From Alistipes sp. (GTDB lineage Bacteria; Bacteroidota; Bacteroidia; Bacteroidales; Rikenellaceae), in NCBI GenBank assembly GCA_017503575.1, contig JAFVSV010000018.1, positions 1 to 37,034 of the forward strand: a DNA stretch of 37,034 bases. Direction: 5' to 3'. A model generated the notes under the pieces. The model saw only the letters and a program-made list of their open reading frames with translations, was not told the origin of the DNA and did no database searches. Position numbers and translations under genes: made by a program. Of the stretch, positions 7,257-30,077 are shown piece by piece (the stretch's first letter is position 1; every line of letters starts with the position of its first letter).

Positions 7257-7288
7257 CAAAGATAATACAAATATTCTTTACCCGCAAA
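7257..7288 (-). promoter_or_regulatory. Promoter of the initiator tRNA gene
   Basis: Minus-strand -7 box TATCTTTG (7257-7264), 20-bp spacer, -33 box TTTG (7285-7288): a near-perfect Bacteroidota promoter. The predicted start is ~55 nt before the mature tRNA. Confidence 0.75.
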
Positions 7289-7357
7289 TATTTTTTTCGG
7301 CGGATGACGATATTATACCTTGATGTGCGATGCTATGTGTTGTGTATCAAGATGTTA

Positions 7358-12646: not shown

Positions 12647-13846
12647 ATGGTTAATTTAAGAATTGTAGTCAGAAGACTAAATTGCTCAATGCAAGAGGCT
12701 GAGATTGTTTATGAAATCTGCCACAAGGAGTACACGCGCAGTGTTGCCAGTGGGCATATCATCTATTATGACGAGTGGGATTGGTGTGAGTCGAGAGTGA
12801 AAATTGATGTTGGTGATAACGCGAGATGTGGGTATCTGCAGCTGATAATCAATTCGATAGCCAAGGACATGGCTTTGTTGCGACACATTGTTTCGATGTC
12901 ATCTGAGCATGGAGATACTGATTATTCGCACCTGCTGGAGATCTATCGTAAACAGACTACGGTGTTGGAGTTTATGCGTGAGACTATCAAGCATAAGCGA
13001 GAGATTGGGAAGAGTAGAACGGCGGAGACGTATCAGGCAACATTGAATAGTTTTGGCCTATTTTTGCATAACGATGACGTGCTATTTGAGGATATGAATT
13101 TCGAGTTGATATGCTCCTATGAGGCCTTTTTACGCGAGAAGAGAGTGTCGCTTAATACCTCATCATTCTATATGCGCAATCTGCGTTCTATCTATAATCG
13201 TGCAGTGGAGCGTGGAATAGCCGAGCAGCACAATCCATTTCGCGGTGTCTATACGGGGGTGTGTAAAACCCAGAAGCGTGCAATTGGGTTGAATGAGATA
13301 CGGCGTATAATAGCCCTCAATCTCGTGCATGACAGTATGTTGGAACTTACTCGAGACATCTTTCTTTTTTCGCTTTATGCGCGTGGCATGTCATTCGTTG
13401 ATATTGCTTATCTCGAAATCTCCGATATAGAGAATGGGGTGTTATCATACACTCGAAGAAAGACGGGGCGACGTCTACATATCCGTTTGGAGAGATGTAT
13501 GCAGGATATAATCTGTAAGTACTACTCGTCAGGGTCGGCTTACATTTTTCCGCTACTTGATGAGCACGCTGATAATATCCGTAGAAGTTATCTGAATATG
13601 CTACACATGGTTAATAGAAAGTTGAAAGTCATTGGGTCAATGGCTAAGATAGATGCCAATCTATCAATGCATGTGGCTCGACACACTTGGGCGAGTTTGG
13701 CAAAGCGTATTAATATCCCAATATCGGTTATCAGCGATGGCCTTGGTCATGACTCCGAGAAGACGACACTAATCTATATTTCGTCCATAAATAACAATCT
13801 TATTGATAATGCGAATAGGGCGATTATAAGTCAGATACTTAAATAG
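12647..13846 (+). CDS. Tyrosine site-specific recombinase (probable DNA invertase)
   Basis: 399 aa. The N-terminal part (1-115) is an arm-type binding region. A SAM-like core-binding domain follows (~120-205, YQATLNSFGLFL ... FYMRNLRSIYNRAVERG). The catalytic domain (~210-399) has the expected residues: R246 (ARGMSF), K272 (RRKTGR), H342 and R345 (HVARHTW), H368 (LGHDS) and Y377 (LIYIS). This is the Bacteroidota integrase type that catalyses local DNA inversions or transposon integration. No excision gene or other mobile-element genes accompany it. The inverted repeat 46 bp past its stop bounds a promoter-carrying segment, so it most likely flips that promoter. No clear promoter was found upstream. 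Confidence 0.92.
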   Translation: MVNLRIVVRRLNCSMQEAEIVYEICHKEYTRSVASGHIIYYDEWDWCESRVKIDVGDNARCGYLQLIINSIAKDMALLRHIVSMSSEHGDTDYSHLLEIYRKQTTVLEFMRETIKHKREIGKSRTAETYQATLNSFGLFLHNDDVLFEDMNFELICSYEAFLREKRVSLNTSSFYMRNLRSIYNRAVERGIAEQHNPFRGVYTGVCKTQKRAIGLNEIRRIIALNLVHDSMLELTRDIFLFSLYARGMSFVDIAYLEISDIENGVLSYTRRKTGRRLHIRLERCMQDIICKYYSSGSAYIFPLLDEHADNIRRSYLNMLHMVNRKLKVIGSMAKIDANLSMHVARHTWASLAKRINIPISVISDGLGHDSEKTTLIYISSINNNLIDNANRAIISQILK

Positions 13847-13892
13847 TTATTTGGGGTGTTTGCTTGGTTTATTTGACGCCTGTTTGTGCGCG

Positions 13893-13914
13893 CCATCTCT
13901 ATATAAGAGATGAA
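13893..13914 (+). repeat. Left inverted repeat / recombination site
   Basis: The core CATCTCTATATAAGAGATG (13894-13912) consists of two inverted 7-bp arms, CATCTCT and AGAGATG, around the asymmetric 5-bp centre ATATA. It plus one base on the left and AA on the right is the exact reverse complement of the right site. Confidence 0.9.
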
Positions 13915-14231
13915 TAGCTGTTTGATTTTATTCGCTCATTTGCCTTGTATTAGGTGATTTATAATCATCGTATTACTAATCTTGGTTAACCCGCGGTGCT
14001 TTTTTCGATACGCCCATATCAGTTTTGCCCCCCCCCTCCGCCATAGCATCGCAGGGAATAAAGTTCGCTATTTCCATATTTTTTTTGTGTTCGATGATAG
14101 ATTGTCTCTATTGACCGCCTCTATATGCACAGAGCGATCGATAATTGTGGGTGTTGAAATAGATCTGCGGATCGTATAATTAATTTGATGTTGAATGGAA
14201 TTTAATGTCGCCAATTTTTTATGGGTAAAAA

Positions 14232-14263
14232 CTTGGATATAACCTAAAAAAATATTATTTTTG
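14232..14263 (+). promoter_or_regulatory. Promoter of the kinase/FHA operon, carried on the invertible segment
   Basis: -33-like CTTG (14232-14235), 20-bp spacer, perfect -7 box TATTTTTG (14256-14263). The predicted start is near 14269, just before the right inverted repeat, so the transcript would start ~67 nt before the first ATG (14337). Confidence 0.75.
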
Positions 14264-14275
14264 TACAACGATTGG

Positions 14276-14297
14276 TTCATCTCTTATATAGAGATGG
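14276..14297 (-). repeat. Right inverted repeat / recombination site
   Basis: Core CATCTCTTATATAGAGATG at 14278-14296: same arms, centre TATAT, the reverse complement of the left site. Opposite orientation predicts inversion and not deletion. It lies inside the operon leader in the ON state. Confidence 0.9.
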
Positions 14298-14336
14298 TCA
14301 AAAAACAGACAATTTTAACTTTAATTCACTATAATT

Positions 14337-15098
14337 ATGTCTACAAGTAAAACCGTGTTCCCAGGTATGGACGCGAACTATGATGCACAGTCGTCATCTG
14401 ACGCACACAGAACTAACCTAAACGCTGACGCACAGAAGACTTATTCAACAAGTTATGATGGTAACCGTGGCCGTTGCGGTACATTCTTCCCAGGTATGCA
14501 CAACGTAGCTGCTCCTGCTTCCGCCGAGTCAAGATGTGCTGAGCCAGCACAGCAGGCAAGAAGAAAGCCATTGGTGGGCTTCCTATACTCTATCTCTCGT
14601 GGCGAGATAGGCGAGTATTGGCCATTGTACATTGGTCAGAATAGCGTGGGTGCATCGCCAAAGAGTGATATATATCTCAAGGAGGCTACCGTATCACAGG
14701 ATCATGCTCTAATCGTCATCCGTAAGATGAAGAACCCCGAGAAGGTTATCGCATCTATTAGCGATGCTCGTTCTACAAATGGCACGATGATTAATGGCGT
14801 GAGCTTGGGCTTTGCTGCCGAGGAGTGTAAGAATGGCGATATCTTGACCTTTGGTGAGAACTATCAGTGTATGCTAATTCTTATCGATGTCAAGGAGCTT
14901 GGTCTCAGTGTCTCTGAGTCGTTTATCCCTGTTCAGGATGAGTCGGAGATGCAGGCGCAGATGCAGAGTGTTAATGTCGCTGACAACAATGTTGTTAATG
15001 CGCCAGGTCGCTTCGATATGAACCGCAGTAGCAATGCTACTGTTGGTGTGGATGGTGAGACTCCAGTATATAGTGGTGGTGGCACCGTAGGTATGTAA
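14337..15098 (+). CDS. Soluble FHA-domain adaptor protein
   Basis: 253 aa, no signal peptide or membrane segment. A disordered N-terminus (1-75) is followed by an FHA domain (~80-185): IGQNSVGASPKSDIYL, VSQDHALI and RSTNGTMING give the phosphothreonine-binding pattern, although the usual Arg after the first Gly is Gln102 or nearby. A disordered tail follows. The motif T-(V/F)-F-P-G-M occurs twice in the N-terminus (6-11 and 49-54), and the protein ends T-V-G-M; these threonines are candidate targets of the kinases encoded next. FHA adaptors of this layout (compare GarA in actinobacteria) switch between self-binding and partner binding when phosphorylated; that role here is inference. It is the first gene of the operon. 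Confidence 0.85.
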   Translation: MSTSKTVFPGMDANYDAQSSSDAHRTNLNADAQKTYSTSYDGNRGRCGTFFPGMHNVAAPASAESRCAEPAQQARRKPLVGFLYSISRGEIGEYWPLYIGQNSVGASPKSDIYLKEATVSQDHALIVIRKMKNPEKVIASISDARSTNGTMINGVSLGFAAEECKNGDILTFGENYQCMLILIDVKELGLSVSESFIPVQDESEMQAQMQSVNVADNNVVNAPGRFDMNRSSNATVGVDGETPVYSGGGTVGM

Positions 15099-15121
15099 AT
15101 TATCAAAAACGATGGTAATTT

Positions 15122-16777
15122 ATGTCGGTTATTAGAATAGATAGCGGCAGTTTTACATCAAACGTATATTATGAGTACGACCCCTCTGCAACTCCTCTGG
15201 GTTGCGGAGGTATGGGTCGTGTCTTTAAGGGTCGAAGTTTTGACAAGAAGAGCGGAATAACTCGTGATGTTGCTATAAAGTGTCTGTATGAGGATCTCCC
15301 CGACCATGTTATAGCTCGAGCAAGACGCGAGGCATCAATACGACTACGCAACGACAGCCTGATAGAGATGATAGATTTCATCGAGTGCGATGGCGATGGT
15401 AGCAATGGATCTACTCAAAAGACTTACTACGTTGTTAGTGAGTATATTGATGGCGTGTCGTTGGACGAGTTCCTGGATGGCAAGCTGAAGAACAAGGATG
15501 GGGTAGTGTCGGCCGAGATAGAGTCGCTATACGCTCTGTACAAGAAGGATTCGTGCGATTTCGCTATTAAGGTTGTCAATAAGGTGTTGGCGGGCATGAT
15601 GGCCTTGCATGATGCAAACTATGTGCATCGTGATATCGACCCCTCAAACATTATGATTGATACTCACGGTGGTATCAAGTTGATTGACTTTGGTATTGCC
15701 AAGAAGATTAGTACAATCAATACTGGTGATAAGCAGTATACGGTTAATGGGCAAATTATAGGTAAGCCATTTTATGCTGCCCCAGAGCTTGTTACGGGAG
15801 ATGTGAAAAACCATAACTCTACAACAGATACCTATGCTATTGGTATTCTCCTCTTTCATCTCATTACGGGTCATGTTCCATTCAAGGGTGCCATTCACGA
15901 GGTGATTGATAAGCAGTTGCACAGCAACGTGCCATTGAAGGAGATTCAGAATAGGGCGGTGAGAGCCATTATTGAGAAGGCGACAAATAAGCGTCAGACG
16001 TTGAGATACCGAAGCGCTGCGGAGTTTAGAGTGGCTCTCGAGTCTGTCGATTTGTCTCGCGGCAATGGTGGTGGTAGAGGCGCCAAGGTGGCTATCGCGT
16101 GTATCGCCGTACTTGCAATCGTTGGCGGTGCAGCGTTCTTCTTAATGAAACCTGATGAAAAGAGTGCGGAGGATGGTGAGGATACAAAGGGACAGATAAA
16201 TGTTGTGGCTTTGGAAAAGGATACTACTTCTACGGCGGGTACTATCCCATCTCCTACTCCCCATAAGGAATCAGATACATATTCCTCGGCAGTGAAGATG
16301 CTAAAGTCGCCTGATAGTGTCGAGGTTCGTAATGGTTTCAAGGCAATTCAGGAGCTCGCCGACGCTGGCGACAACGAAGCAATGTTGTTGCGTAGTCGTA
16401 TTTACTATCAGAAGGCGAAATCAGATGTGGACCTTTTGGACTTTGGTGTCGTGATAGAGGATATCCGCAAAGTACTTGGTATTGTCGCTGATAAGAAAAA
16501 GGCGCATAATTACTTGGTCGAGTATGTCAAGGATAATGAGGATGATTATCGTGCTTGGTTTGAGTTGGGGTGCGACTACTATGCTGGTCCGCAGCGAGGC
16601 GTTGACCGTCGTGATATGAGTTTTGCAAAGTATTGTTTTCTTCATGCGGACACTCTCTTGTCGAATGTTGGTGGTGAGATCTCTAAGCAGTATAGGGAGG
16701 AGATTGATATAAAACTTGTTCAGATTGATAAGAGGAGGATATACGAGCCTAAATGGCCCAAAGAGTTAGCAAACTAA
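15122..16777 (+). CDS. Membrane-anchored Hanks-type Ser/Thr kinase with unusual catalytic loop
   Basis: 551 aa. Kinase domain ~18-308: glycine loop GCGGMG (27-32), AIK with K53, helix-C Glu about E70, HRD (169-171), N176, DFG (189-191) and APE (220-222). The catalytic-loop lysine is Asp (HRDIDPSN, D173) and the conserved Thr of the P+1 segment is Lys (GKPFYAAPE, K215), a possible charge swap. A transmembrane helix at ~322-342 is followed by a C-terminal part (~385-551) with helical SEL1/TPR-like repeats that would lie in the periplasm. It probably senses an envelope signal and phosphorylates operon partners. 23 bp after the FHA adaptor gene. Confidence 0.92.
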   Translation: MSVIRIDSGSFTSNVYYEYDPSATPLGCGGMGRVFKGRSFDKKSGITRDVAIKCLYEDLPDHVIARARREASIRLRNDSLIEMIDFIECDGDGSNGSTQKTYYVVSEYIDGVSLDEFLDGKLKNKDGVVSAEIESLYALYKKDSCDFAIKVVNKVLAGMMALHDANYVHRDIDPSNIMIDTHGGIKLIDFGIAKKISTINTGDKQYTVNGQIIGKPFYAAPELVTGDVKNHNSTTDTYAIGILLFHLITGHVPFKGAIHEVIDKQLHSNVPLKEIQNRAVRAIIEKATNKRQTLRYRSAAEFRVALESVDLSRGNGGGRGAKVAIACIAVLAIVGGAAFFLMKPDEKSAEDGEDTKGQINVVALEKDTTSTAGTIPSPTPHKESDTYSSAVKMLKSPDSVEVRNGFKAIQELADAGDNEAMLLRSRIYYQKAKSDVDLLDFGVVIEDIRKVLGIVADKKKAHNYLVEYVKDNEDDYRAWFELGCDYYAGPQRGVDRRDMSFAKYCFLHADTLLSNVGGEISKQYREEIDIKLVQIDKRRIYEPKWPKELAN

Positions 16778-16796
16778 TCAGTGATTCCCAATTACT

Positions 16797-17711
16797 ATGA
16801 GTAGTATATTTCAGCGACCTGGCGATCCATACCTATATTTATATGTAGAGCGAAGGTGGTATTGCTACGATCCAAGTGAGACCCCTATTGGTGGTGGCTC
16901 TATGGGTACGGTATACCGCGGTTATGATGTCGAGACTAAGGAGCGTATTGCTATCAAGCGTGTTATTGACAGATATGCCAATAATTCGATGATTCGCGAG
17001 CGTGCAAAGTTGGAGGCTTCGTTGGCGTTCCGTCATCAAAACCTTGTGGAGATGATTGGATATTGCGAGTATGAGAATGGACAGGGCCCAATATTTATCC
17101 TCAGTAAGTTTGTAAATGGTGAGAATGTCGATAAGTTTATCGCCAACTTGCCAGATACACCCGATAGGATAGAGAAGATTTGCAGGATTGCATATATGGT
17201 GTTGGACGCCTTGGAGTATATCCATGAGAAGGGTGTTGTGCATAGAGATATCAAACCCTCGAACATAATGGTTGAGTACGGGTCAAACGTGCGACTTATG
17301 GACCTGGGTATTGCTCGAATGAATAGCGGTAACTCCTTCTCTCACTTGGGATTTATCGGCACGCCCCAGTACTCGGCGCCAGAGCAGATCTTGCGCGATA
17401 GTACAGGCACCACGCCGATAAATGCTTCAACCGACATCTATGCCCTTGGCATCACGCTCTACGAGTTGATGACGGGTGCAAACCCATTTGAGAGCACTGT
17501 TGAGGCAGAGACGCTGATGCGTCAGATGAGAGATATACTCCCTGATAACAAGAAGATACCAAAGAAACTATTAGCAGTTCTCCGTAAGGCAACGGCCAAG
17601 AATCAGGCCGAGCGCTACCAGACGGCTGCCGAGTTTCGAGCAGCCATTGAGGAGGGATTGATACCCTCAAAATCATTGTGGCAGAGATTTGTTAATTGGC
17701 TAAAAATGTAG
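16797..17711 (+). CDS. Soluble Hanks-type Ser/Thr kinase
   Basis: 304 aa, kinase domain only, no transmembrane segment. Glycine loop GGGSMG (32-37), K54 in AIK, helix-C Glu ~E73, HRDIKPSN (149-156), DLG in place of DFG (169-171), and a canonical GTPQYSAPE (188-196). All catalytic residues are present; DLG is an accepted variant. Both kinases share the lead-in 'YDPS-TP(L/I)G-G-MG', so they are paralogues. The C-terminus (LWQRFVNWLKM) is amphipathic and might touch the membrane. It starts 19 bp after kinase 1 and is followed 7 bp later by the phosphatase. Confidence 0.92.
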   Translation: MSSIFQRPGDPYLYLYVERRWYCYDPSETPIGGGSMGTVYRGYDVETKERIAIKRVIDRYANNSMIRERAKLEASLAFRHQNLVEMIGYCEYENGQGPIFILSKFVNGENVDKFIANLPDTPDRIEKICRIAYMVLDALEYIHEKGVVHRDIKPSNIMVEYGSNVRLMDLGIARMNSGNSFSHLGFIGTPQYSAPEQILRDSTGTTPINASTDIYALGITLYELMTGANPFESTVEAETLMRQMRDILPDNKKIPKKLLAVLRKATAKNQAERYQTAAEFRAAIEEGLIPSKSLWQRFVNWLKM

Positions 17712-17718
17712 TTGTAAG

Positions 17719-18591
17719 ATGGAACTTATAAGGATAGATACAGAACATGAGTTGCTTGCCTATGCAGAGTCGCGTATAGGTGGTCGAGTGGAGAACCAAG
17801 ACTCGTACGGCACGGCAGATACTCCATTAGGTTTCCTTGCTGTGGTGTGTGATGGCATGGGTGGTGGCCCTGCGGGTAAGTTGGCCTCTACGATAGCTGT
17901 CAATGCCATTATTGAATATGTCAACGAGGCTGACCAAGAGAAGTCCACCAAGGATGTGTTGGTAGAGGCGATATGGAAGGCTAATGACGATATAATGGCG
18001 CAGGGTGTTGAGAATCCAGCGTTGGCCGGTATGGGCTCGACATGTGTAACACTTCTCATCAATGAGCATAGTGCCACTATCGCATACGTTGGCGACAGCC
18101 GAGTATATCAGTTCAGAGGCTCAAATAAGATATATAGGTCGTTTGACCACTCGATGGTGTTTGACCTTGTTAAGCAGAAGATTATCACCGAGGAGCAGGC
18201 TCGTTTGTCGGTGCAGTCGAATGTCATTACCAAGTGTTTGGGCGCTCGTCCAGAGCTTGAGCCCGATGTCGTTGAGGTGTCGTATCGTAGCGGAGATAGA
18301 TTCCTGTTGTGTACCGATGGCATTCATGGTTCACTACCAGAGAGCGAGCTAATTGCGATGGTGACAAATAAGGATGCGTCGTTAGGTCAGGTCGTTGACG
18401 AGGTGGCAACGCATGTCGATGGCCATGGTCGTAGCACTGGTGGCGGTCATGATAACTTGACACTTTTGATGACCGAGATGAAGAGTAATTCACTGCTGAA
18501 GTCGGCATCAAATGGTAAGTGGATTGCTGCTGTTGTTGGCGCAGTTGTCGTGTTAGTTGCTTTAGTGGTATTGGCCTTTGTACTATTGTAA
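17719..18591 (+). CDS. Membrane-anchored PP2C-type Ser/Thr phosphatase
   Basis: 290 aa. The PPM/PP2C metal-binding motifs are present: ENQD (25-28), DGMGGG (45-50), GDSR (125-128), CTDGI (198-202) and GGHDN (242-246). A single C-terminal membrane helix (~268-290) tail-anchors the catalytic domain on the cytoplasmic side. It should remove phosphate from the targets of the adjacent kinases. PrpC/Stp-type enzymes are usually encoded next to the cognate kinase, as here. Confidence 0.93.
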   Translation: MELIRIDTEHELLAYAESRIGGRVENQDSYGTADTPLGFLAVVCDGMGGGPAGKLASTIAVNAIIEYVNEADQEKSTKDVLVEAIWKANDDIMAQGVENPALAGMGSTCVTLLINEHSATIAYVGDSRVYQFRGSNKIYRSFDHSMVFDLVKQKIITEEQARLSVQSNVITKCLGARPELEPDVVEVSYRSGDRFLLCTDGIHGSLPESELIAMVTNKDASLGQVVDEVATHVDGHGRSTGGGHDNLTLLMTEMKSNSLLKSASNGKWIAAVVGAVVVLVALVVLAFVLL

Positions 18592-18650
18592 CAGGTTGAG
18601 CTGCTTAATAATACAAATGTAAGAATATATAATTATAAAACTTAAACAAT

Positions 18651-19778
18651 ATGAAAACCTATTCAATCGGAAGAGACCCGGAGTGTGACATTGTTATCAA
18701 TGACGCAACCGATGTGATTAGCCGTAGACATGCGATTTTGAATATCGCACCATCCGGCAAGATGACAATCGTTGACCAGAGTACCAATGGTACCTATGTC
18801 AATGGTATTCGAATTAGTTCAAATGTCCCCGTTCCCGTTACAAGAAAGGATACGGTGTCGTTTGCCCATGTGGCAAAGATGGACTGGGGCCAGGTGCCCT
18901 CGAGTGGCGGTAGCGGCAAGACCTTCTTTGTAATCTTGTTGATACTACTCCTTGGCGCTGGTGGTGGATACTACTTTATGACTCAGTCAGAGTCAAAATC
19001 TAAGTCGGAGTCAGCCGATAAATCGGAGAGCCTGGCTGTAGGCAGCTTTGGTGGCGTTGACCGTGACGGTGCTGACCGTGAAGATGATGACCGTGGTGGC
19101 GCTGGCAGTGGTATTAGCGATGATGAGATAATTCTCGAGAAGACCACTATTGATTGCTCGGCAAAGGGTGGCGATCAACTGCTCAACTATAAGTTGGGAA
19201 CAGATGAGACTGTTGAGGTGACCACAGATTCTGAGTGGATAACCATCAAGGAGGTCAACCATGTGCATCAGTTTATCAAGTATAGCATATCAACCAACGA
19301 GAGTGACACATGCCGCACGGGTAAGATTGTTCTTGCATACGGTGATGGCCAGAGCGTTGAGGTTACTGTAAATCAGCTTGGTCAGCCAGTATTCAGACTC
19401 ACATCTGATAGTGACGTGACTTATAGAGCTGGTGGTGAGGCTGGTACTATCACCTTCGTTCTCAACAATGCAATTGAGGGTGTAGATGTTAAGGTCGAGG
19501 TGTCTAAGAGTGTGACCTGGATTACCAATATCAAGGTTGAGAATGGTATGGTTACATATAATGTAGCACCAAACCATAGCAGCTCAACCCGTCAGGCTAA
19601 TATTGTCGTTCGCTATGGCGATGCCTCGTTCAGGGTTACCGTACGCCAGAAGCCTGGCAAGGTGACACCGAAGCCACCGGTTGAGGACGATAAGACGGAC
19701 GATAAGACGGACGAGAATACGGGCGAGAAGAAGGAGGAGGTGCCATCGGCTTATAGCTCAGCTGCAGTTGGAGCATAA
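18651..19778 (+). CDS. FHA-TM-(BACON)2 transmembrane protein
   Basis: 375 aa. N-terminal FHA domain (1-85: SIGRDPECDIVI, ISRRHAIL, DQSTNGTYVNG) with the full phosphothreonine-binding set. One transmembrane helix (~91-110) is followed by a Ser/Lys then Asp/Gly-rich linker (111-158) and two BACON-type Ig-like domains (~160-244 and ~246-334; SEWITI, RTGKIVLAYGDGQSVEVTVNQ and VTWITN, RQANIVVRYGDASFRVTVRQ). The tail is an Asp/Lys-rich repeat (DDKTDDKTDENT). Topology: FHA in the cytoplasm, BACON in the periplasm. BACON domains are usually found on glycosidases and surface proteins; here they may bind glycan, peptidoglycan or a protein. It is 59 bp after the phosphatase gene with no promoter seen between. 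Confidence 0.87.
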   Translation: MKTYSIGRDPECDIVINDATDVISRRHAILNIAPSGKMTIVDQSTNGTYVNGIRISSNVPVPVTRKDTVSFAHVAKMDWGQVPSSGGSGKTFFVILLILLLGAGGGYYFMTQSESKSKSESADKSESLAVGSFGGVDRDGADREDDDRGGAGSGISDDEIILEKTTIDCSAKGGDQLLNYKLGTDETVEVTTDSEWITIKEVNHVHQFIKYSISTNESDTCRTGKIVLAYGDGQSVEVTVNQLGQPVFRLTSDSDVTYRAGGEAGTITFVLNNAIEGVDVKVEVSKSVTWITNIKVENGMVTYNVAPNHSSSTRQANIVVRYGDASFRVTVRQKPGKVTPKPPVEDDKTDDKTDENTGEKKEEVPSAYSSAAVGA

Positions 19779-19823: not shown

Positions 19824-21386
19824 ATGAGACTATTAAAGATTGGTAGATCTGTATCGTGCGATATCGTTCTACGTAGTGACAAGGTGAGTTCTATTCATGC
19901 TGAGATTACAGTTTTGAATAATGGTGATATTATCCTCGAGGATAAGGGTAGCCACAATGGTACATACGTTATGAATCAGCGTATCGCATCGGATACGCCG
20001 GTTAATATCAGACGTGGTGATACAGTGCGTTTTGCCGATGTAGAGCTTGTGTGGGATCAGGTGCCTATGCCCGAGCGCAGCGACAACTACAAGGCGATAT
20101 ACAGCATTGGCTCTAACTTCCGCAACGAGATTCAGATTACGGGTCATACCGTGAGCCGTTTCCATGCTACACTTAAGATTGACAAGAGTGGTCGCGCATA
20201 TATCCAGGACCACAGTAAGAATGGAACAATGGTCAATGGCAACCGCATTAACTCGGGTCAGAACGTAGCTATCAAGCGTGGCGATTCTGTGACCTGTGGT
20301 GGTGTACCAGTGGATATTAAGCGATATATCCCTGGCTCAATGATGCCAAAGTTGTTGATGATTGCGGCTTGCCTTGCGGCTGTTGTTGCTGTCGGCTTCG
20401 CTGCTTATACTTTCTTCATGAATGATAAGGAGACTCTTAAGCCTGTCGAGCACGACAAGCATTATAGAAAGACGGTGGTGTTGACTTATTTTGAATACAG
20501 TTATGATTTGTATATCAAGGACAACCCATTTGTGGGTTATGCGTCTACCTCTGAAATACCTGTTTATTCTATCTCAGGTGCTACTGGCAGAGGAACAGCG
20601 TTCTTTGTTAATAAAGATGGTATGCTTGTTACCAACAAGCATGTTGCGAACCCATGGTTGTATGCAGAAGCAGATGAGAGAACTGATTTAGGCTTGATAC
20701 GAGAAGCTGTAATGAGTAAACTTTTGCCAAATATACCTGTTTATGATTTAATAGGACTTTTTAATAATGATAATGATAAGGATTATGAATATGAGCCAAT
20801 TCTTAAGAGGATATATCGTAATAGTGGTAGAGATGCTTCACTGATCGCAATGCTCGTAAGTCAATTCCATAAGTGTGATTGTGAGTGGGTAGGTAGAATT
20901 ACTGATTTGTCGATTGCTATTCCAGGTGTGGGATATCGTGGTTATTCCGACTTCGAACCATGTACCGTATGTACTGTGTCAGATAAGTATGACATAGCAC
21001 TTATTCAGTTGCATTCGAGAGTTACCCCAGAGGGCGTAAACGTCGTTAATCTAAATGATTATGTGGCGATAGAGGACCTCTCTGTAAAGGAGGACTATTA
21101 CTATATGGGTTATCCTCAAATTACAGGTGCTAATATCAATTATGACCACGACAATGAGGAGTTTTCATGTAAATATGGTAGCTTCAAGTTGAGCCGTACT
21201 CCAAAGTCTAACAAAATAGAGTTCAATAGAAAAGACCTTGGTGGTGTCAGTGGCTCTCCAATATTCGATACCTATGGACGCTTGGTCGGTATGATTCACT
21301 CTGGTAATGATTACGCAGAAACATTGATTGCTGCACCTGCTAAGCTTATATACAATATGTACAAGGAGTACATGGAGGATAAATAG
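19824..21386 (+). CDS. (FHA)2-TM-trypsin-like serine protease
   Basis: 520 aa. Two FHA domains (1-77: KIGRSVSCDIVL, SSIHAEI, GSHNGTYV; and 88-165: SIGSNFRNEIQI, VSRFHATL, SKNGTMVNG), a transmembrane helix (~174-197), then a chymotrypsin-fold peptidase (~220-512). The triad candidates are H273 (TNKHVA), D390 (YDIALIQL) and S476 (GGVSGSP). The FHA pair would be cytoplasmic and the protease periplasmic, so kinase activity inside could recruit or gate proteolysis outside. The protease half is visibly richer in A/T codons (about 20460-20870) than the FHA half, suggesting a swapped effector domain. Substrates are unknown; neighbouring secreted proteins are candidates. Confidence 0.88.
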   Translation: MRLLKIGRSVSCDIVLRSDKVSSIHAEITVLNNGDIILEDKGSHNGTYVMNQRIASDTPVNIRRGDTVRFADVELVWDQVPMPERSDNYKAIYSIGSNFRNEIQITGHTVSRFHATLKIDKSGRAYIQDHSKNGTMVNGNRINSGQNVAIKRGDSVTCGGVPVDIKRYIPGSMMPKLLMIAACLAAVVAVGFAAYTFFMNDKETLKPVEHDKHYRKTVVLTYFEYSYDLYIKDNPFVGYASTSEIPVYSISGATGRGTAFFVNKDGMLVTNKHVANPWLYAEADERTDLGLIREAVMSKLLPNIPVYDLIGLFNNDNDKDYEYEPILKRIYRNSGRDASLIAMLVSQFHKCDCEWVGRITDLSIAIPGVGYRGYSDFEPCTVCTVSDKYDIALIQLHSRVTPEGVNVVNLNDYVAIEDLSVKEDYYYMGYPQITGANINYDHDNEEFSCKYGSFKLSRTPKSNKIEFNRKDLGGVSGSPIFDTYGRLVGMIHSGNDYAETLIAAPAKLIYNMYKEYMEDK

Positions 21387-21397: not shown

Positions 21398-22981
21398 ATG
21401 AGGATGACTTCCAAGTATATAACAAGAATACTAACACTCTGTTTGACAACATTTACTGTCTGCGCAGCAACGGCGCAGACGGTGATGTGGTCAATACCGC
21501 CTAAATACGACAGTATTGAGGAGTACACCGCAGATGCCTATCTGTGCTCGGCCGATGGGAAATGTGGTGTGGTGGCATCCAGTGGAGAGGTGATTGTCCC
21601 AATTGAGGTTGACGATATTACTGAAAGCTATGAGGGTAAGGCTCTGGCTCTTGTCAAAGATAGCGATAGTAGGTGGCGTATTGTCGGCATCTTGCATGTC
21701 CATGATATGAAGTACTCTCCTCTTTCGGAGCGATACTACATGAATAAATATAGCCACTTCTCTGAAGGTTTGCTCAGCGTGATGAATCAACAGGGTGCGG
21801 CTGGCTATATCGATGATGAAGGCAATGTGGTCATCGACTGCCAGTTTGCATCGGCATGCCCATTCAGCCAAGGGTTAGCATTGGTGGTGCGCCCCTCATC
21901 AAAACAGGAGTGCCTCTACATCAAGCGCGACTACGGCAAGACGCGAATGCCGCTTATCGTGGATTTTGCAAATGGCCGACTGACGGCTGGTACGACATTC
22001 AAGAATGGCAGGGCTCTCGTGGCACATTACTCAAGCCTTGCATATATCAATACCCAAGGTAATGTTATCGAGAAGTTTAAGGGTGAGTTCTCATCCGACA
22101 TGATCGACTCGTTTGATTACTCTTTGAAGGGTGAGGGTGGTGAGGAGCATAAGCCAGATGTGCCACAGCCATCATATCGCGATCTGGGCATAGAGCTTAT
22201 AGATGATAATGGCTACTATGGCTATCGCATGAGTAATGGTGTGGTCATACCTGCCCAGTTCGACGCTGCAGAGCCCTTCAAAGGCGAGTACGCCAAGGCG
22301 AAGTATCAGTCGAAGTATGGCGTATTGAAGTATGTAGCGACACCCTTGACTGTAACCTCTGATACGAAAGAGATTTTCGTCATGACCAAGGAGTCACCAG
22401 CGCTGTATAAGTTCTCAATGTTGGCGCCTCGCGAATTCGAAGCATCTAAGTTGAGTGTTAAATTTGATGCAGGCAGCGGTTTTCTGGAGGATATCACAAT
22501 GAGTGTTGATGGTGGCGGCAATTATAGCTATCAGTGTAAGCCACAGTTTACCTTGGGCGCGCTTGAACTTGATACAAAGATTAGGGTGTGGTATGATGGC
22601 ATCTTGATTGCCGATGTGCCTCGCACCATACCTATCACCTATCCCATGGACTTTACGATATCGGGAATTCAGGCAGTCGGTAGTAATGCCGATGAGAATG
22701 ATTGCCAGACGGTTATGGCCTATGTGACCAATAATACCGCAATTCCTGTGAAGGCAAAGATTGAGATTACGGCAACCTCGCAAAATGATAGCGAGGGTGG
22801 CCTGTCGAAGGTGTCAAATCCCTATGTCGTCACATTGAATAGTGGTGAGCGTATGCGTATTAGCGTTGATTGTAGTGTATACACAAGATATAACTCGATC
22901 GTCGAGGTCGCTGTATATGTAGACGATGAGCGCGTGGGCTATAGTTCAATTCCCGTCGCCATGGTTCCTTTTTATGAGTAA
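21398..22981 (+). CDS. Secreted WG-repeat protein with one C-terminal Ig-like domain (pair 1)
   Basis: 527 aa. Signal peptide to about residue 27 (AATAQ). Residues ~30-315 hold WG-type repeats (KCGVVASSGEVIVPIEVDDI, AAGYIDDEGNVVIDCQFASA, YYGYRMSNGVVIPAQFDAAE, SKYGVLKY). After a linker comes a beta-rich region and one ~100-aa CARDB/Ig-like domain (FTISGIQAVGSNADENDCQTVM ... PFYE). WG repeats form binding surfaces in secreted or periplasmic proteins; the function here is unknown. It is closely related to the gene at 23788 and is followed 23 bp later by a beta-barrel gene. Confidence 0.82.
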   Translation: MRMTSKYITRILTLCLTTFTVCAATAQTVMWSIPPKYDSIEEYTADAYLCSADGKCGVVASSGEVIVPIEVDDITESYEGKALALVKDSDSRWRIVGILHVHDMKYSPLSERYYMNKYSHFSEGLLSVMNQQGAAGYIDDEGNVVIDCQFASACPFSQGLALVVRPSSKQECLYIKRDYGKTRMPLIVDFANGRLTAGTTFKNGRALVAHYSSLAYINTQGNVIEKFKGEFSSDMIDSFDYSLKGEGGEEHKPDVPQPSYRDLGIELIDDNGYYGYRMSNGVVIPAQFDAAEPFKGEYAKAKYQSKYGVLKYVATPLTVTSDTKEIFVMTKESPALYKFSMLAPREFEASKLSVKFDAGSGFLEDITMSVDGGGNYSYQCKPQFTLGALELDTKIRVWYDGILIADVPRTIPITYPMDFTISGIQAVGSNADENDCQTVMAYVTNNTAIPVKAKIEITATSQNDSEGGLSKVSNPYVVTLNSGERMRISVDCSVYTRYNSIVEVAVYVDDERVGYSSIPVAMVPFYE

Positions 22982-23004: not shown

Positions 23005-23721
23005 ATGATTAGAAAAACTTTAATGTTGCTTCTCGCCTCGCTATTTGTGGTGAGCGCAAATGCACAGGTCGGTAAGTATGAGGAGATTGACGATACTCCT
23101 ACTAATAGCAAGTATGTGGAGATTGACGAAGATGATAATGGCTTGTTCAATGCCGATCTCTCGTATCGTTTATCATTAGGCCCTAAGGTTGGCTTCAACT
23201 GTGTCATGGGCAAGCGTGTGGACGTAGTTAATGACACAGCCTTTGATGCAAAAGGTGGTGTAGGCTTCAATGCAGGTCTTGCGTTCAATGCCCATTTTGG
23301 TCGTCGCTCAATGTCGAGCAAGGGCGGTACAGGCTGGATAGGTCTTCAGTTGGAGGCGCTTTACTCAAACAAGGCTATCAAGGTTGAGGACGAGAAGATT
23401 GGTTTCCACAGCTTCGAGATTCCAGTGTTGGCACAGTGCTACCTCATACCTAACCTTTATGTCGAGGTGGGCCCAACTTTCACAGGCTCTTTTGCACACC
23501 CATCGTCTAAGCAGATAATCAAGAATGGCGATGTCTATGGTGTCGGCCAAATCAAGGCCTACGATGTGATGTTATCTATTGGCTTGGGCTACAAGAGCAA
23601 GGGCGGTTTTATGGTTAACGCCCGATACAACCTCGGTAACAGCAAGCTTGCAGGTAACTTCCCGATCAAGATGAGCACCTTGACAGTGTCGGTAGGTTGG
23701 TTGTTTAACGTTGCGAAGTAG
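23005..23721 (+). CDS. Outer-membrane beta-barrel protein (pair 1)
   Basis: 238 aa with a signal peptide (1-21, SANAQ) and alternating beta-strands ending in an aromatic-rich C-terminal strand (TLTVSVGWLFNVAK). It has the PorT/OMP_b-brl layout of small barrels (~8 strands; SLGPKVGFNCVMG, GFNAGLAFNAHFG, GLQLEALYSN, YVEVGPTFTG, SIGLGYKSKGGFMVNARYNLG). It has a clear paralogue at 25724. It probably provides the outer-membrane partner of the preceding WG-repeat protein. Confidence 0.85.
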   Translation: MIRKTLMLLLASLFVVSANAQVGKYEEIDDTPTNSKYVEIDEDDNGLFNADLSYRLSLGPKVGFNCVMGKRVDVVNDTAFDAKGGVGFNAGLAFNAHFGRRSMSSKGGTGWIGLQLEALYSNKAIKVEDEKIGFHSFEIPVLAQCYLIPNLYVEVGPTFTGSFAHPSSKQIIKNGDVYGVGQIKAYDVMLSIGLGYKSKGGFMVNARYNLGNSKLAGNFPIKMSTLTVSVGWLFNVAK

Positions 23722-23787
23722 TGCGTTAAACCAATTTCTGCGTGGCTCTTATATATTGTGCTGCGCTTTGTAATGTGGATTATAATT

Positions 23788-25704
23788 ATGAATAGATTAT
23801 CAAATATTGTAAAAAGAGTCCTCTTGCTATGTGTGGCGACGTTAGCTACAACCGTTGTCGGCGCACAGACAGTGACGTGGTCTATACAGCCTATCTATGA
23901 CAACCTCGAGGAGTACGCCCCAAACGCCTATAAGTGTACTATTGGCGATAAGCACGGCGTGGTACTCGCTAATGGTGAGGTCGTCGTCCCCGTTGAGGCC
24001 GATGAGATTACGCCTGCATACGAGGGCAAGGCGTTGACACTCGTCAACAGAGGCGACCTGCAACTCATCACCGGCTTCCTCGATATAGAGACTATGAAGT
24101 ACTATAAGCTCGAGGAGACGTACTATACAAACGATCAGTATAGCCACTTCTCTGAGGGGTTGATATCTGTTAGAAATTACAAAGGTCTGATGGGCTACCT
24201 CGATGTTCAGGGTAATGTCAAGGTGGACTTCAAATATGACACGGCGTACCCATTCAGCGAGGGCTTGGCTTTGGTGCATCCCGTCGGTGGCAAGAAGAGC
24301 GAGATCTATATCAGCAAACACGGGCAGATTTTGCAGATGGGCTTCGACAATGGTAAGATACAGTATGGCACTACCTTCAAGGATGGTAAGGCTATCGTAT
24401 GCCACGGCTCGAGATTGTACACCATCAGAAAGGGACAGCGCCCCGAGTACTTTGCTGGTGAGATTAAGTATGATCCTTTCGATCACTCACTAATGGGCGA
24501 GACAAGCAAGGCAGATGACTACTACAAGTTTGAGCCCGAGCCATTCTGTGCGGATGTCGAGATCTTTCAGCTTGGCGAGTTCAAGGGCTATCGCTTTGGC
24601 GATGGCACTACCATACCTGCCCAGTTTGAGCATATAGAGAACTTCCGTGGCCTCTATGCTAAGGCATGGCAGAACTCTAAGTGTGGATTGTTCAAGTTGG
24701 TGAATATCTCGTTCGATATCGCCTACTCTACCGATGATCTTATAATCAATGCAGATGGTCAACCAACAGAGTATGAGTTGACGTTGGATATTGTTGGCGG
24801 ATATAGCACCAACAAGTTGCGCGTTGAGTTTGACTCGGGTAATGGTGTTTTGGAGCCTATCGAGATGAGTGGTGATAGCGAGCACCTTGTTTACCGCGCA
24901 GTGCCCAATATGGCTGATGGCGCCGAGAAACTTGCTACACGTTGTAAGGTGTGGTACGATGGCTTCTTGGTGAGGGATGAGCGCCACACAATCAATGTTA
25001 AGTATCAGGTTAATATCTCTATTTCGGAGATTATGGCAGTGGGCACCAAGGCAAGCAAGGATAATATACAGTGTGTTACGGCTACTGTTACCAACAAAAC
25101 TGCAAAGACTCTTATCGTAGATGTGAAGTTTACGGCTCAGTCTCAAACTAAAGATGAAAATGGTCAAATCCGTGTCTCAAGAGGTAGTCAGTCATATCCC
25201 GTGACATTGAGAAGTGGCGAGAGCAGGGCTATTGAGCATAAGTGTCATGTCTACAAGGACTTCTATTCGGAGGTAGAGGTTGAAGTATTGGACGATGCTG
25301 GTAATCACATGATTGGTGACGAGAATGTAGTTCTCTTGACTCGCAATGATGCCGATGATAGCTTTGTTATCTCTAATATCTATGCGGTAGGCGATGCGGC
25401 TAATGACGCTGATAAGCAGACTGTCATGGCTACGGTGACTAACAATACTATTGAGGCGGCAACTGTCACAATTCAGATTGCGGCAACATCTCAGCAGAGA
25501 AACGAGAGTGGTGATATCAGCGATGCGACCATCACGAATACGATCTCGGAGATAACCCTCGAGGGTGGTCAGAGCATTAATATCCCGTTGGAGTGTACTG
25601 TGTTGAATGGCTATACTACGCCGGTTGATGTTCGTGTCGAAGTAGATGGCGTGAAAAGGGCCGAGAAGACACGATATGTGGTATTGACACCTTTCTACGA
25701 GTAA
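23788..25704 (+). CDS. Secreted WG-repeat protein with two C-terminal Ig-like domains (pair 2)
   Basis: The start at 23788 gives 638 aa and a clean signal peptide (MNRLSNIVKRVLLLCVATLA..VVGAQ); the frame is open to a GTG at 23758, which would add a poor leader. The WG region (~20-330) aligns block by block with the pair-1 protein (TVTWSIQPIYDNLEEYAP, KHGVVLANGEVVVPVEADEI, YSHFSEGLISV, FKGYRFGDGTTIPAQFEH). It then carries two tandem CARDB/Ig-like domains (IMAVGTKASKDNIQCVTATVTN ... and IYAVGDAANDADKQTVMATVTN ...), where the paralogue has one. Both proteins end PFYE. Secreted, probably periplasmic or surface. Confidence 0.82.
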   Translation: MNRLSNIVKRVLLLCVATLATTVVGAQTVTWSIQPIYDNLEEYAPNAYKCTIGDKHGVVLANGEVVVPVEADEITPAYEGKALTLVNRGDLQLITGFLDIETMKYYKLEETYYTNDQYSHFSEGLISVRNYKGLMGYLDVQGNVKVDFKYDTAYPFSEGLALVHPVGGKKSEIYISKHGQILQMGFDNGKIQYGTTFKDGKAIVCHGSRLYTIRKGQRPEYFAGEIKYDPFDHSLMGETSKADDYYKFEPEPFCADVEIFQLGEFKGYRFGDGTTIPAQFEHIENFRGLYAKAWQNSKCGLFKLVNISFDIAYSTDDLIINADGQPTEYELTLDIVGGYSTNKLRVEFDSGNGVLEPIEMSGDSEHLVYRAVPNMADGAEKLATRCKVWYDGFLVRDERHTINVKYQVNISISEIMAVGTKASKDNIQCVTATVTNKTAKTLIVDVKFTAQSQTKDENGQIRVSRGSQSYPVTLRSGESRAIEHKCHVYKDFYSEVEVEVLDDAGNHMIGDENVVLLTRNDADDSFVISNIYAVGDAANDADKQTVMATVTNNTIEAATVTIQIAATSQQRNESGDISDATITNTISEITLEGGQSINIPLECTVLNGYTTPVDVRVEVDGVKRAEKTRYVVLTPFYE

Positions 25705-25723: not shown

Positions 25724-26422
25724 ATGTTAAGAAAAACTTTTTTACTACTAATCGCATCTCTCTTTGCTTTGAGTGTTAATACTCAAGCTCAGGAGAATGA
25801 GACATCATCTGTTGATGTTGAGGATGCGACATACGACGAGTCGCTCGATAACGCGTTTGTTGTCTCGGATCCTAAATGCCGTGTGGGCCTTGGCCCCAAG
25901 GTGGGTGCGAACTACTCATTGGGTCAGATCCATCAGAATGCAAATTTCAACGTTCAGAATGGATTTGGCTATCAGGCAGGTCTTGTTCTGAATGCGCACT
26001 TTGGCCGTCGTTCGATATCGAGCCGTGGTGGTACAGGCTGGTTTGGTCTTCAGGTTGAGGGCCTCTATTCAAAGAAGTCTGTGGTTATCAACGAAGCAAA
26101 GCACGATTTCCAGAGCTATGAGATTCCATTTATGTTGCAGCTCTACTTAGCTCCTCGCTTCTATATCGAGGCAGGCCCAACGTTTATGGGTTATTTCAAG
26201 TATAGCACCACTGCTAAGGAGCCTCAGGAGATGATTTTTACGCCTGGCAAGATTGATACATTCGATGTGATGCTCTCTGTTGGTCTTGGTTATAAGAGCA
26301 GAAGTGGCTTTATGTTGGGTGCTCGCTACAATATAGGACACCTTGAGCTTGCTGGCGACTTCCCTATCACCACGAGTACGGTTATGATCTCGATGGGCTG
26401 GGCTATTAATATGGTTAAGTAG
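25724..26422 (+). CDS. Outer-membrane beta-barrel protein (pair 2)
   Basis: 232 aa, paralogue of the 23005 gene: signal peptide (to ~23, NTQAQ), then GLGPKVGANYSLG, GYQAGLVLNAHFGRRSISSRGGTGW, YIEAGPTFMG, SVGLGYKSRSGFML and a C-terminal strand VMISMGWAINMVK. The N-terminal acidic region after the signal is diverged. It follows the WG-repeat gene by 19 bp, repeating the gene order of pair 1. Confidence 0.85.
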   Translation: MLRKTFLLLIASLFALSVNTQAQENETSSVDVEDATYDESLDNAFVVSDPKCRVGLGPKVGANYSLGQIHQNANFNVQNGFGYQAGLVLNAHFGRRSISSRGGTGWFGLQVEGLYSKKSVVINEAKHDFQSYEIPFMLQLYLAPRFYIEAGPTFMGYFKYSTTAKEPQEMIFTPGKIDTFDVMLSVGLGYKSRSGFMLGARYNIGHLELAGDFPITTSTVMISMGWAINMVK

Positions 26423-26451: not shown

Positions 26452-27471
26452 ATGAGACGTTTTTTACTTTTAGCAATAGTTGCAGTTGCAACACTTTTCA
26501 ACTCGTGTCAGAATGAGAATATTACTGTTAGACGAGCAATAGATTTGAAGATTAATCTTGAGACAATTATTGAGCCATTCACATACGAGGAGTTAGACGG
26601 TGAATTGAGTAAGCCTTATGCTGATTACGAGTTGCGTACACAAACGTTAATTTATGATATTGATGGCGACTTGGTTGAGTCATATACAGACTACTCTGAT
26701 AGCTACAATGCTATTATTAAAAGATCATTATCTTTGGGTAATGGTACATATCGTATAGTTGTTATCAATGATGTGATTAATCGTACACCAGGTGATGAGT
26801 CGCACTATTGGGATATAAAGAATGTAAGTAACCTGAATAATTTAACACTTATCCCTTCTGATGAATATTGGGTTTCGCGAAGTGCTACACTTGGATTGGC
26901 ATGTCAGGAGATTAATATCTCTGATAACCTCAATGGGGCTTTGGAGATCAATGTGGAGCCAGCTGGTGCTTTATTGTTATTCAATGTCAAGAATGCACAT
27001 AAATACGATGATATCGACTATACTGTATTTAGAAGCTCAACGATAGGTAAATCAATATTGTTTGATAAATCTGGAGAAATAATATATCAAAAAGAGGTGG
27101 CAGACGCTGGTCGTACCAATGCACTAAGTCTAATTCCCCCAGGTTCAGAGGGTAAAATTGTGTATGGTTATCTGTTTTTAATGCCTATCGGCGAAACTGA
27201 TATTGATTTTCGAGCCATTTCAACTAGTGGCGAAGTGTTATATGATAGCGAAGTGTTGCGTGTAAACCTTAAGAAGGGTGATGAGTGGCGCTTTGCGTTA
27301 GATTATCGTGATGAAACAACGGGTGAGACAACACTTCGTTGCGAGTTGATGAATGGCGATGATAATACCCGTGGTACATTGCCTGCAATAGATAGCGATA
27401 ACATTGTTGAGATGGGTAACACCTTCCAGGAGCTTGGTCCAAAGGAGTATAGAGTGTTGGATCTAATCTAA
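26452..27471 (+). CDS. Lipoprotein, fimbrial-anchor-like (uncertain)
   Basis: 339 aa with a lipoprotein signal (hydrophobic 4-16, FNSC, Cys19). The rest is beta-rich in two halves (~25-150 and ~165-300). The pattern of 'IYDIDG-LVESYTD ... L-NGTYRIVVINDV' resembles FimB/Mfa2-type fimbrial anchor lipoproteins, but this is a weak impression. The gene is more A/T-rich than its neighbours, suggesting a separate origin. It is followed 4 bp later by the S41 peptidase gene. Confidence 0.65.
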   Translation: MRRFLLLAIVAVATLFNSCQNENITVRRAIDLKINLETIIEPFTYEELDGELSKPYADYELRTQTLIYDIDGDLVESYTDYSDSYNAIIKRSLSLGNGTYRIVVINDVINRTPGDESHYWDIKNVSNLNNLTLIPSDEYWVSRSATLGLACQEINISDNLNGALEINVEPAGALLLFNVKNAHKYDDIDYTVFRSSTIGKSILFDKSGEIIYQKEVADAGRTNALSLIPPGSEGKIVYGYLFLMPIGETDIDFRAISTSGEVLYDSEVLRVNLKKGDEWRFALDYRDETTGETTLRCELMNGDDNTRGTLPAIDSDNIVEMGNTFQELGPKEYRVLDLI

Positions 27472-28829: not shown

Positions 28830-30077
28830 ATGAGAAGAAAACTTATTTACCTTGTTGCACTGCTTGTTGGCGCTGTTACTTCTGCCAATGCGCAGTCTGT
28901 TCAAACATTGGTGTTGAGCAATGGCTCGGAGTTGGATGGCTACATCTCGGCTCAGCGCCCAGGTGTCGACCTCACCTTTAGCTCAAACCGCGCACTCATG
29001 TATCTCAACCCCGCAGAGGTGAAGAGCATCGTTGACCATGAGGTAGGCATTGCTGATCTCAGCGATGAGTGGAAGGCATGGGCGGAGGCAGAGGATGCCT
29101 ACATCGGTATTGGCGACAACCGAGTATTTGTTTTGAGCGATATCATCATGAAAGATGGCAGCCCTATCAGTGGTGTGCGAGTACTCGAGAGAGGTGGCCG
29201 TGTGAAGTATCTGGAGTATAAATCTAATAAGCATCTGCTCAAGTGGGATCAGATATCACTTATTAAGAGCGTTAAGCGTACTCGTTCACAGCTTACAGGT
29301 ATCGACCGTGTATATAAGCTCGCCAATGGTAGCGAGTTCGCTGGTCAGTATGCCGAGGAGGTACCAGGCAAGACCGTATGTCTATATAACAACAACGGTT
29401 TTGTTGAGGTTATTCCTATGGATAAGGTGGTTAAGGAAATGCGAGTGAAGGTTAACCCTCATCAGTCGCTCTTCGAGCAGAGTGAGTATCTCGATATCGT
29501 GGAGATGAAAGATGGCTCTAAACATACTGGTATTGTCATTGAGCGTAATTTTACCGAGGACGCCGTATCGAGCTATCTCCTTATTCAGATCGACAACGGC
29601 TCTATTATCAGCCTTAAGTTAAACCAGGTTGTTGAGTACCGCAAGGCGCAGAATATGGAGTTTAAGCCTCTCTATGATGTCTTGCTTCGCGAGGGCGAGT
29701 TCATGGTAAACCGCACCGAGGTCAAGGCACAGACAGCGACGATTGATGATGATATGGTCTTTGTAGATGAGACCCAGTGTGGTGTAGATGTAGCGTACAT
29801 GGCACCATTCGTTGAGATCTCTGTGGAGTCATGCTTCGCAAAGGAGGAGGATTATCACAACATCAAACTCATCAAGATGAGAAAGTATCGTGATGATAAG
29901 CAGAGTATCCTCCATGGCTTTGCAAAGTCGAATCTCGAAAAGTACAGCCTCCATCCATTGAGTGTTATTACAAGCTGCAATAATACTACAAAGATGACCT
30001 ATAACGTATACGAGCCAGGTTTGTACGCCATTTATAATGTCGCTACAAATGAGACCTATCTGTTCAATGTGAAGTAG
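28830..30077 (+). CDS. Secreted protein with four Sm/SH3-like repeats, unknown function
   Basis: 415 aa with a signal peptide (1-22, ANAQ). Four related ~45-residue units begin with the pattern hydrophobic-x-(N/D)G(S)-x-x-x-G and end with a 'hydrophobic-x-x-V-(V/K)' strand: residues ~26-68 (LSNGSELDGYI), 104-147 (MKDGSPISGV), 161-203 (LANGSEFAGQY) and 221-271 (MKDGSKHTGIV). Such short five-strand barrels are common in Bacteroidota secreted proteins. The C-terminal ~130 residues are unrelated. It is the last gene of the operon, 1 bp after the S41 gene and before the terminator. Confidence 0.75.
   Translation: MRRKLIYLVALLVGAVTSANAQSVQTLVLSNGSELDGYISAQRPGVDLTFSSNRALMYLNPAEVKSIVDHEVGIADLSDEWKAWAEAEDAYIGIGDNRVFVLSDIIMKDGSPISGVRVLERGGRVKYLEYKSNKHLLKWDQISLIKSVKRTRSQLTGIDRVYKLANGSEFAGQYAEEVPGKTVCLYNNNGFVEVIPMDKVVKEMRVKVNPHQSLFEQSEYLDIVEMKDGSKHTGIVIERNFTEDAVSSYLLIQIDNGSIISLKLNQVVEYRKAQNMEFKPLYDVLLREGEFMVNRTEVKAQTATIDDDMVFVDETQCGVDVAYMAPFVEISVESCFAKEEDYHNIKLIKMRKYRDDKQSILHGFAKSNLEKYSLHPLSVITSCNNTTKMTYNVYEPGLYAIYNVATNETYLFNVK

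Follow-up and report, generated by a model that had tools for sequence, protein, structure and literature searches.

A probable recombinase-driven promoter switch upstream of an FHA/kinase/PP2C operon in Alistipes

Units composed of an invertase gene, an invertible promoter and an operon are established in the Bacteroidales, and have promoters with a −33/−7 (TTTG/TAnnTTTG) consensus (PMC8748976). The sections of that paper on local tyrosine invertases describe the same order of invertase gene, repeats plus promoter, and operon as is seen at the locus considered here, report the convergent recruitment of such units for resistance genes, and place the plasmid pMMCAT in a tree. Also in the Bacteroidales, the Mpi promoters of Bacteroides fragilis switch polysaccharide loci through DNA inversions, the mechanism that we also propose here; in the passages of PMC5903667 that treat them, Mpi is described as a serine recombinase with at least 13 scattered target regions, whereas the enzyme described here is a tyrosine recombinase adjoining one site. 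The same passages indicate that RecV, a master recombinase of C. difficile, serves some switches, but not all (PMC5903667). The known cargo of invertible promoters in the Bacteroidales comprises capsules, surface receptors and resistance genes.

Here, we describe a locus in a 37,034-nucleotide stretch of Alistipes sp. DNA (the window), drawn from an assembly of 1.82 Mb in 100 contigs, which, judging from sequence comparisons, is very probably a recombinase-driven phase-variation switch controlling a run of 13 genes.

Architecture of the switch locus

Reading from the left, the recombinase gene is followed by 46 bp, a 22-bp arm, 361 bp, the complementary arm, a further 39 bp and then the 13-gene run. 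The features of the switch itself are:

12647..13846, + strand: tyrosine recombinase, 399 aa, the proposed local invertase (PF13102 and PF00589, above cut-off)
13893..13914, unstranded: left inverted-repeat arm, 22 nt, 100% complementary to the right arm; CATCTCT-N5-AGAGATG palindrome
13915..14275, unstranded: candidate invertible segment, 361 bp between the arms
14233..14263, + strand: Bacteroidota-type promoter, TTG-N20-TATTTTTG, facing the operon (ON as assembled)
14276..14297, unstranded: right inverted-repeat arm, 22 nt, 100% complementary to the left arm

A preliminary description of this DNA had claimed perfect 22-bp inverted repeats around a 361-bp segment, one good promoter facing the operon and a complete tyrosine recombinase gene 46 bp from the left arm, and each of these parts is borne out. 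The pair of arms occurs once in the assembly: the only two perfect copies of CATCTCT-N5-AGAGATG are those at the arms, and 11 further palindrome sites each carry 2 mismatches (a reversed control pattern gives 5). The 5-bp centres of the two palindromes, ATATA and TATAT, are reverse complements of each other, such that pairing of the centres would favour inversion rather than deletion. The promoter is made up of a TTG (14233–14235), a 20-nt spacer and TATTTTTG (14256–14263), and it stops 34 bp short of the segment's right end; the TTG...TAnnTTTG motif is absent from the opposite strand of the segment. TAnnTTTG is frequent by itself, with 34 sites in the window versus 20.46 expected, and thus the weight of the motif comes from where it lies. 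Between the right arm and the first operon gene, which begins at 14337, there are 39 bp, and this interval contains a sigma-70-type match (14306–14335) that we counted against the switch model, although such matches occur there no more often than by chance (9, versus 9.0 in shuffles).

The recombinase frame is open, with its stop 46 bp from the left arm, and the active site is well preserved: the columns of the Lys, the second Arg, both later His residues and the nucleophilic Tyr do not vary across the 39 aligned rows (window included), and 38 rows have the Arg of an RGM motif. At the first His position of the HxxRH motif, 37 rows carry Tyr, and the window recombinase carries His. In an alignment to solved recombinases, the usual position of the first Arg is occupied by Ser in the window recombinase, the conserved Arg of RGM lying three residues earlier; IntDOT, a related integrase, reportedly also lacks the usual first Arg.

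The 43 family segments described below include none longer than that of the window, which measures 405 bp with its arms (157–348 bp for the others). No second genomic or inverted copy of the window segment was found in 180 genomes of the genus, where G185 matched it over 27 bp only, at the promoter; likewise, no copy of the arm was found in viral contigs, and a megablast comparison of 12647–17711 with plasmids gave no match. Elsewhere in the window, a 225-aa ORF at 1757–2434 encodes a TonB-receptor plug domain alone, and may represent a truncated receptor.

The recombinase family and promoter inversion

Relatives of the recombinase were taken from 25 of 61 relatives' genomes at E 1e-30 (own genome included), together with 52 loci from named genomes. 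The repeat survey comprised 72 loci (the window, the 52 named-genome loci and 19 of the 32 other matches from relatives' genomes), of which 4 were dropped for having too little downstream DNA. An inverted repeat is present within 700 bp downstream of the recombinase in 40 of the remaining 68 loci (window included), and a comparable repeat was seen in 1 of 3400 first-order Markov shuffles of the downstream regions; the 28 loci that have no such repeat are counted against the switch model. The recombinase–repeat layout is a trait of the family. Its arms also share a pattern, since 28 of 43 family segments follow CT-N5-AGA and 17 follow TCTCT-N5-AGAGA; covariation of arm with recombinase sequence was not significant in a Mantel test (r 0.135, with 260 of 5000 permutations as high). 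Three-arm elements lie downstream of the recombinases of G001 (L108) and G024 (L107), in each of which one right arm is shared by two left arms, an arrangement that would permit two segment lengths. Additionally, a recombinase encoded on a contig labelled Roseburia (Bacillota; L060) sits among the Bacteroidota rows of the tree, which probably reflects either a mis-binned contig or transfer.

Promoters were surveyed in 43 segments, using one repeat pair wherever a locus has several: these are from 39 of the 40 repeat-bearing loci, the exception being L058 (unlike repeat, 65-bp spacer), and from the operon loci L115, L117, L145 and L147. A strict TTG...TAnnTTTG promoter lies 20–70 bp from one end in 20 of them, compared with 0.6 predicted from shuffles; 8 point forward, 12 point backward and none do both, although removal of the position limit reveals motifs on both strands of G024a and L083. 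The 23 segments without a strict promoter are again counted against the model. Homologous segments of different species (G024a/G027b, L063/L079 and L078/L079) align in opposite orientation over 81–87 bp, which exceeds the length of the arms.

The clearest case of inversion is provided by pMMCAT-type plasmids, whose recombinase is 40% identical to that of the window and whose switch precedes an UpxY gene. Thirteen plasmid regions (L181–L193), out of 46 matching plasmid records, were compared, with L194 (plasmid) and L195 (phage-labelled) kept outside the comparison; 12 of the 13 are near-identical copies (L181–L190, L192 and L193), albeit L193 is alike in segment and recombinase, but has 400 mismatches in the 700 bp downstream. 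One of these 12, L187 (from B. uniformis CL06T06C18), is exactly inverted: against the inverted form, its 178-bp inner segment shows 0 mismatches, compared with 138 against the uninverted form, and its flanks have 0 and 1 mismatches. The other 11 are in the opposite orientation, which is shared by L191, a divergent version of the plasmid. Each of these plasmids has a pair of adjoining switches after a single recombinase gene (4357–4942 in L181–L193, shifted by an insertion in L188 and L189, where a transposase lies between the recombinase and the switches); only the distal switch is inverted in L187, the second, neighbouring switch keeping the uninverted orientation in each of the 12. In the inverting segment, the −7 box is 31 bp from the segment end, versus 34 bp in the window. 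Taken together, the family repeats, the two promoter orientations in relatives and the exact plasmid inversion lend support to the earlier suggestion of a recombinase-driven promoter switch.

The cargo of these switches is diverse. In a sample of ten first genes picked from clusters and singletons (not a census), four encode UpxY-like NusG proteins, and the others a TonB-dependent receptor, a type ISP restriction enzyme, an SNF2/PLD helicase protein, SrfB, a DUF3575 protein, and a product with a sub-cut-off sigma-70 match alone. The switches preceding the type ISP restriction–modification enzyme (L055, 1454–6442) and the SNF2/PLD helicase protein (L043, 7575–10955) suggest phase-variable defence at those two loci. 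FHA/kinase/PP2C genes are a minority cargo, found with 2 (L064 and L084) of the 38 segments besides the window.

The operon and the distribution of its switches

The run consists of 13 same-strand genes (14337–30077) spaced by 1–59 bp:

14337..15098, + strand: FHA-domain protein, first gene of the operon (PF00498)
15122..16777, + strand: Ser/Thr kinase A, one TM-like segment, HRD and DFG motifs (PF00069)
16797..17711, + strand: Ser/Thr kinase B, no TM-like segment, HRD and DLG motifs (PF00069)
17719..18591, + strand: PP2C phosphatase, C-terminal TM-like segment (PF13672 above cut-off; NF033484 below its cut-off)
18651..19778, + strand: FHA – TM-like – BACON protein (PF00498, PF13004)
19824..21386, + strand: FHA – FHA – TM-like – trypsin-like peptidase (PF00498 in two stretches, PF13365)
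21398..22981, + strand: WG-repeat protein, N terminus signal-peptide-like by eye (PF14903)
23005..23721, + strand: outer-membrane beta-barrel protein (PF13568)
23758..25704, + strand: WG-repeat protein 2 (PF14903)
25724..26422, + strand: outer-membrane beta-barrel protein 2 (PF13568)
26452..27471, + strand: family-less protein (no Pfam or NCBIfam hit), with relatives in L143, L144 and L148
27476..28828, + strand: S41 peptidase, N terminus lipoprotein-like by eye (PF03572, PF18294)
28830..30077, + strand: secreted-looking family-less protein, last gene of the run (no Pfam or NCBIfam hit)

Topology was assigned from hydropathy, and signal-like N termini were judged by eye. Kinase A, the PP2C phosphatase, the FHA–BACON protein and the FHA–FHA–trypsin protein have one TM-like segment each, and signal-like N termini are seen in WG-repeat, barrel and S41 proteins and in the two family-less proteins. 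A Cys following the hydrophobic N terminus suggests that the 26452–27471 product is a lipoprotein, although a lipobox pattern matched none of the operon proteins scanned, this one and the S41 peptidase included. The product set would thus appear to reach from the cytosol to the outer membrane. The preliminary description had presented the cargo as a phospho-signalling operon, and the kinases, phosphatase and FHA proteins agree with this; signalling alone, however, does not account for two barrels, two WG-repeat proteins and both trypsin-like and S41 peptidases, given which the operon looks like an envelope system that goes beyond signalling. A defence-system reading was also considered, but is not the one preferred here. 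In a PADLOC scan of 10 of the 13 products (the first WG-repeat protein, the first barrel and the second WG-repeat protein being left out), both kinases match the PD-T4-6 and mad6 models, as kinase domains may, and these matches look generic; of the other 8 products, the phosphatase matches PDC-M21C (56.2 bits), the trypsin protein matches RT-Protease_XI (35.3 bits) and 6 are unmatched. The NCBIfam MAD6 match is far below cut-off.

The FHA/kinase/PP2C operon recurs in the Bacteroidales. The genes that recur in relatives are those for the first FHA protein, kinases A and B, the phosphatase, the FHA–BACON and FHA–FHA–trypsin proteins and the last gene, with kinase A located either before kinase B or at the end. 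Relatives of the last gene (28830–30077) occur in L113–L117, L143–L146, L148, L156 and L064, that is, in 12 of the 15 operon loci compared, the window aside. Within the genus, 7 of 180 genomes have a kinase B match (E 1e-45, own included); matches were also obtained in 15 of 393 genomes of the order (E 1e-35; not all true operons), in 9 of 251, 9 of 173 and 1 of 8 genomes of three other families, respectively (E 1e-60, centre genome included), and in 2 of 395 of the class (E 1e-50), these two being the window's own and one known already. No relatives of kinase B were confirmed in viral contigs.

The frequency of switching was assessed in 23 kinase-found operons with at least 1.5 kb upstream. 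A recombinase and repeats in the order of the window precede 4 of these (L117, L145, L147 and L226, the last apparently the same contig as L084), and 2 have repeats only (L115 and L227; recombinase absent from the stretch compared); the remaining 17 have neither, and it follows that the operon does not need the switch. Counting the window and L064, six operons have both recombinase and repeats. Among the first 10 of the 23, a same-strand recombinase lies within 2 kb upstream in 3, versus 0.008 expected (P 7.5e-8), the expectation coming from a crude model based on genome-wide counts, and the later 13 operons added only one. Weaker kinase matches (G046, G052, G307, G331, G350, G500, G502 and G570) fell outside the census, and G252 (L149; no FHA gene in the stretch) and the cut loci L114, L216, L225 and G1140 were left uncounted. 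L148 was treated as the other half of the L147 operon (G416), and the repeat of L143 (16 bp with one mismatch, non-palindromic, 65-bp spacer, 704 bp before the operon) was not counted as a switch. In the window and in L064, L117, L145 and L115, the TAnnTTTG box faces the operon, and in L147 it faces the other way, whereas no intact box was found in L084 or L227; the upstream TTG half is imperfect except in the window and L115, so that the other orientation calls are weaker.

Some of these switches seem to have been lost, as judged from the sequences of L145, L116 and L156. In L145 (G437; 5879–8206 as oriented), the recombinase gene is interrupted by ~1 kb, and therefore the switch may be frozen unless another recombinase acts; the repeats and an ON-pointing −7 box remain, and the first operon gene is ~515 bp past the repeats, with no ORF of >60 aa between. 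L116 (~2180–2235) and L156 (~6270–6330) have a promoter and right palindrome homologous to those of the G076 switch, without a recognizable left arm, and each may be a relic or a forerunner of a switch; gain in G076 would also explain them. The same gene set with a switch, an apparently decayed switch or none thus provides a natural comparison for asking when phase-varying signalling pays.

The intact recombinases that precede FHA operons (window, L064, L147, L084 and L117) are scattered among the 69 rows of the recombinase tree, from which L145 is absent, its gene being interrupted. Five changes are placed on this tree, at least three of which are forced by well-supported branches, and the operon-linked recombinases form one clade in 0% of 200 bootstrap trees. 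A single ancestral switch for FHA operons was rejected by the AU test (p 5e-87), with the caveat that long branches share the pull of the model; the branch of the window recombinase is itself long (1.55), and its placement unsure. The test did not reject the clades formed by the window, L064 and L147 (p 0.433) and by L084 and L117 (p 0.188), and so we claim at least two recruitments. The L117 recombinase is nested beside three with different cargo. In the operon tree, too, the switched operons are not together, although L148, half of the switched operon of G416, is labelled as unswitched there.

The switch model, its alternatives and known systems

In the model that we favour, the recombinase (12647–13846) would bind the palindromic sites in both arms, and recombination at their 5-bp centres would flip the 361-bp segment. 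As assembled, the promoter at 14233–14263 would read into 14337–30077 (ON), presumably giving a single 13-gene transcript; once inverted, it would face the recombinase, leaving the run without a recognizable Bacteroidota promoter and presumably silent (OFF). Clonal cells would then differ in building a kinase/phosphatase/FHA system spanning cytosol to outer membrane, such that the ON/OFF trait may lie in the presence of an envelope system.

The locus could instead be a former switch locked ON, in which the pair of sites persists and the recombinase is inactive; decay of this kind is seemingly found in relatives (the interrupted L145 gene, the missing left arms of L116 and L156, and the repeats without recombinase of L115 and L227), but in the window the two arms match perfectly along all 22 bp and the open recombinase frame has the conserved residues, making this unlikely. 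We consider it quite improbable that the switch is genuine but worked in trans by another recombinase, with the adjacent gene incidental: master recombinases exist, as exemplified by Mpi of B. fragilis in the relevant part of PMC5903667, and the assembly is just 78% complete, yet it contains one strong family member (the other match is 26% identical, E 2.7e-4), and the adjacency recurs across the family.

Each arm is palindromic, and a 7-bp hairpin would fall in the predicted leader, as might be expected if the repeats were hairpins or regulator sites in a fixed promoter region that does not invert; the opposite promoter orientations in relatives, the exact plasmid inversion and the failure to find a terminator-like site at the arms render this highly improbable. 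It is scarcely credible that the recombinase is a mobile-element integrase and the repeats are traces of insertion: although the enzyme has phage-integrase domains, matches the XerC/XerD models far below cut-off and has relatives on plasmids and phage-labelled contigs, the sites form inverted rather than direct repeats, with a promoter alone between them, and the cargo varies among loci while the recombinase–repeat layout is kept.

The threonine phosphorylation modules of Type VI secretion systems (T6SS) encode a TagH-like FHA protein, a kinase and a PP2C phosphatase together, and the window operon likewise pairs FHA, kinase and PP2C genes. However, the operon was rejected as such a module: its VI_FHA matches are weak (38.8 and 61.8 bits versus a cut-off of 120.25), no T6SS structural family is among the Pfam matches of the 13 gene products, and peptidases, WG repeats and barrels are present instead.

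Kinase, FHA and phosphatase terms are absent from the main texts of PMC11892184 and PMC10939037, and no eukaryotic-like serine/threonine kinase appeared in the best-ranked literature on phase variation and DNA inversion. Searches combining invertible promoter, Bacteroides, kinase and FHA returned nothing, and those combining FHA, PP2C or WG-repeat with Bacteroidetes returned off-topic papers only; overall, no description of FHA/kinase/PP2C genes as inverton cargo was found in the literature covered, to which subscription papers mostly do not belong. The switch is, therefore, of a known kind, with a cargo that we did not find described. We lean towards the view that an envelope machine, apparently undescribed, has been placed repeatedly and independently under local invertible promoters, and that it is the first inverton cargo of its type.

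The cargo is what separates the window from the local invertases of the Bacteroidales, which, in the sections of PMC8748976 that describe them, control upxY/glycan synthesis or resistance genes rather than a kinase/PP2C/FHA envelope operon. A parallel in logic is CmrRST of Clostridioides difficile, where DNA inversion upstream makes a signal-transduction operon phase-variable, as we propose for the window; as portrayed in the pertinent parts of PMC6837544 and PMC8844915, CmrRST is a two-component histidine kinase system without a Ser/Thr kinase, PP2C or FHA protein, unlike the window operon. If our model is correct, some cells of a clone would carry a eukaryotic-like phospho-signalling apparatus and others would lack it, and bistable control of a complete Ser/Thr phosphorylation system, one that seemingly crosses the envelope, would extend the cargo of invertible promoters to signalling capacity itself.
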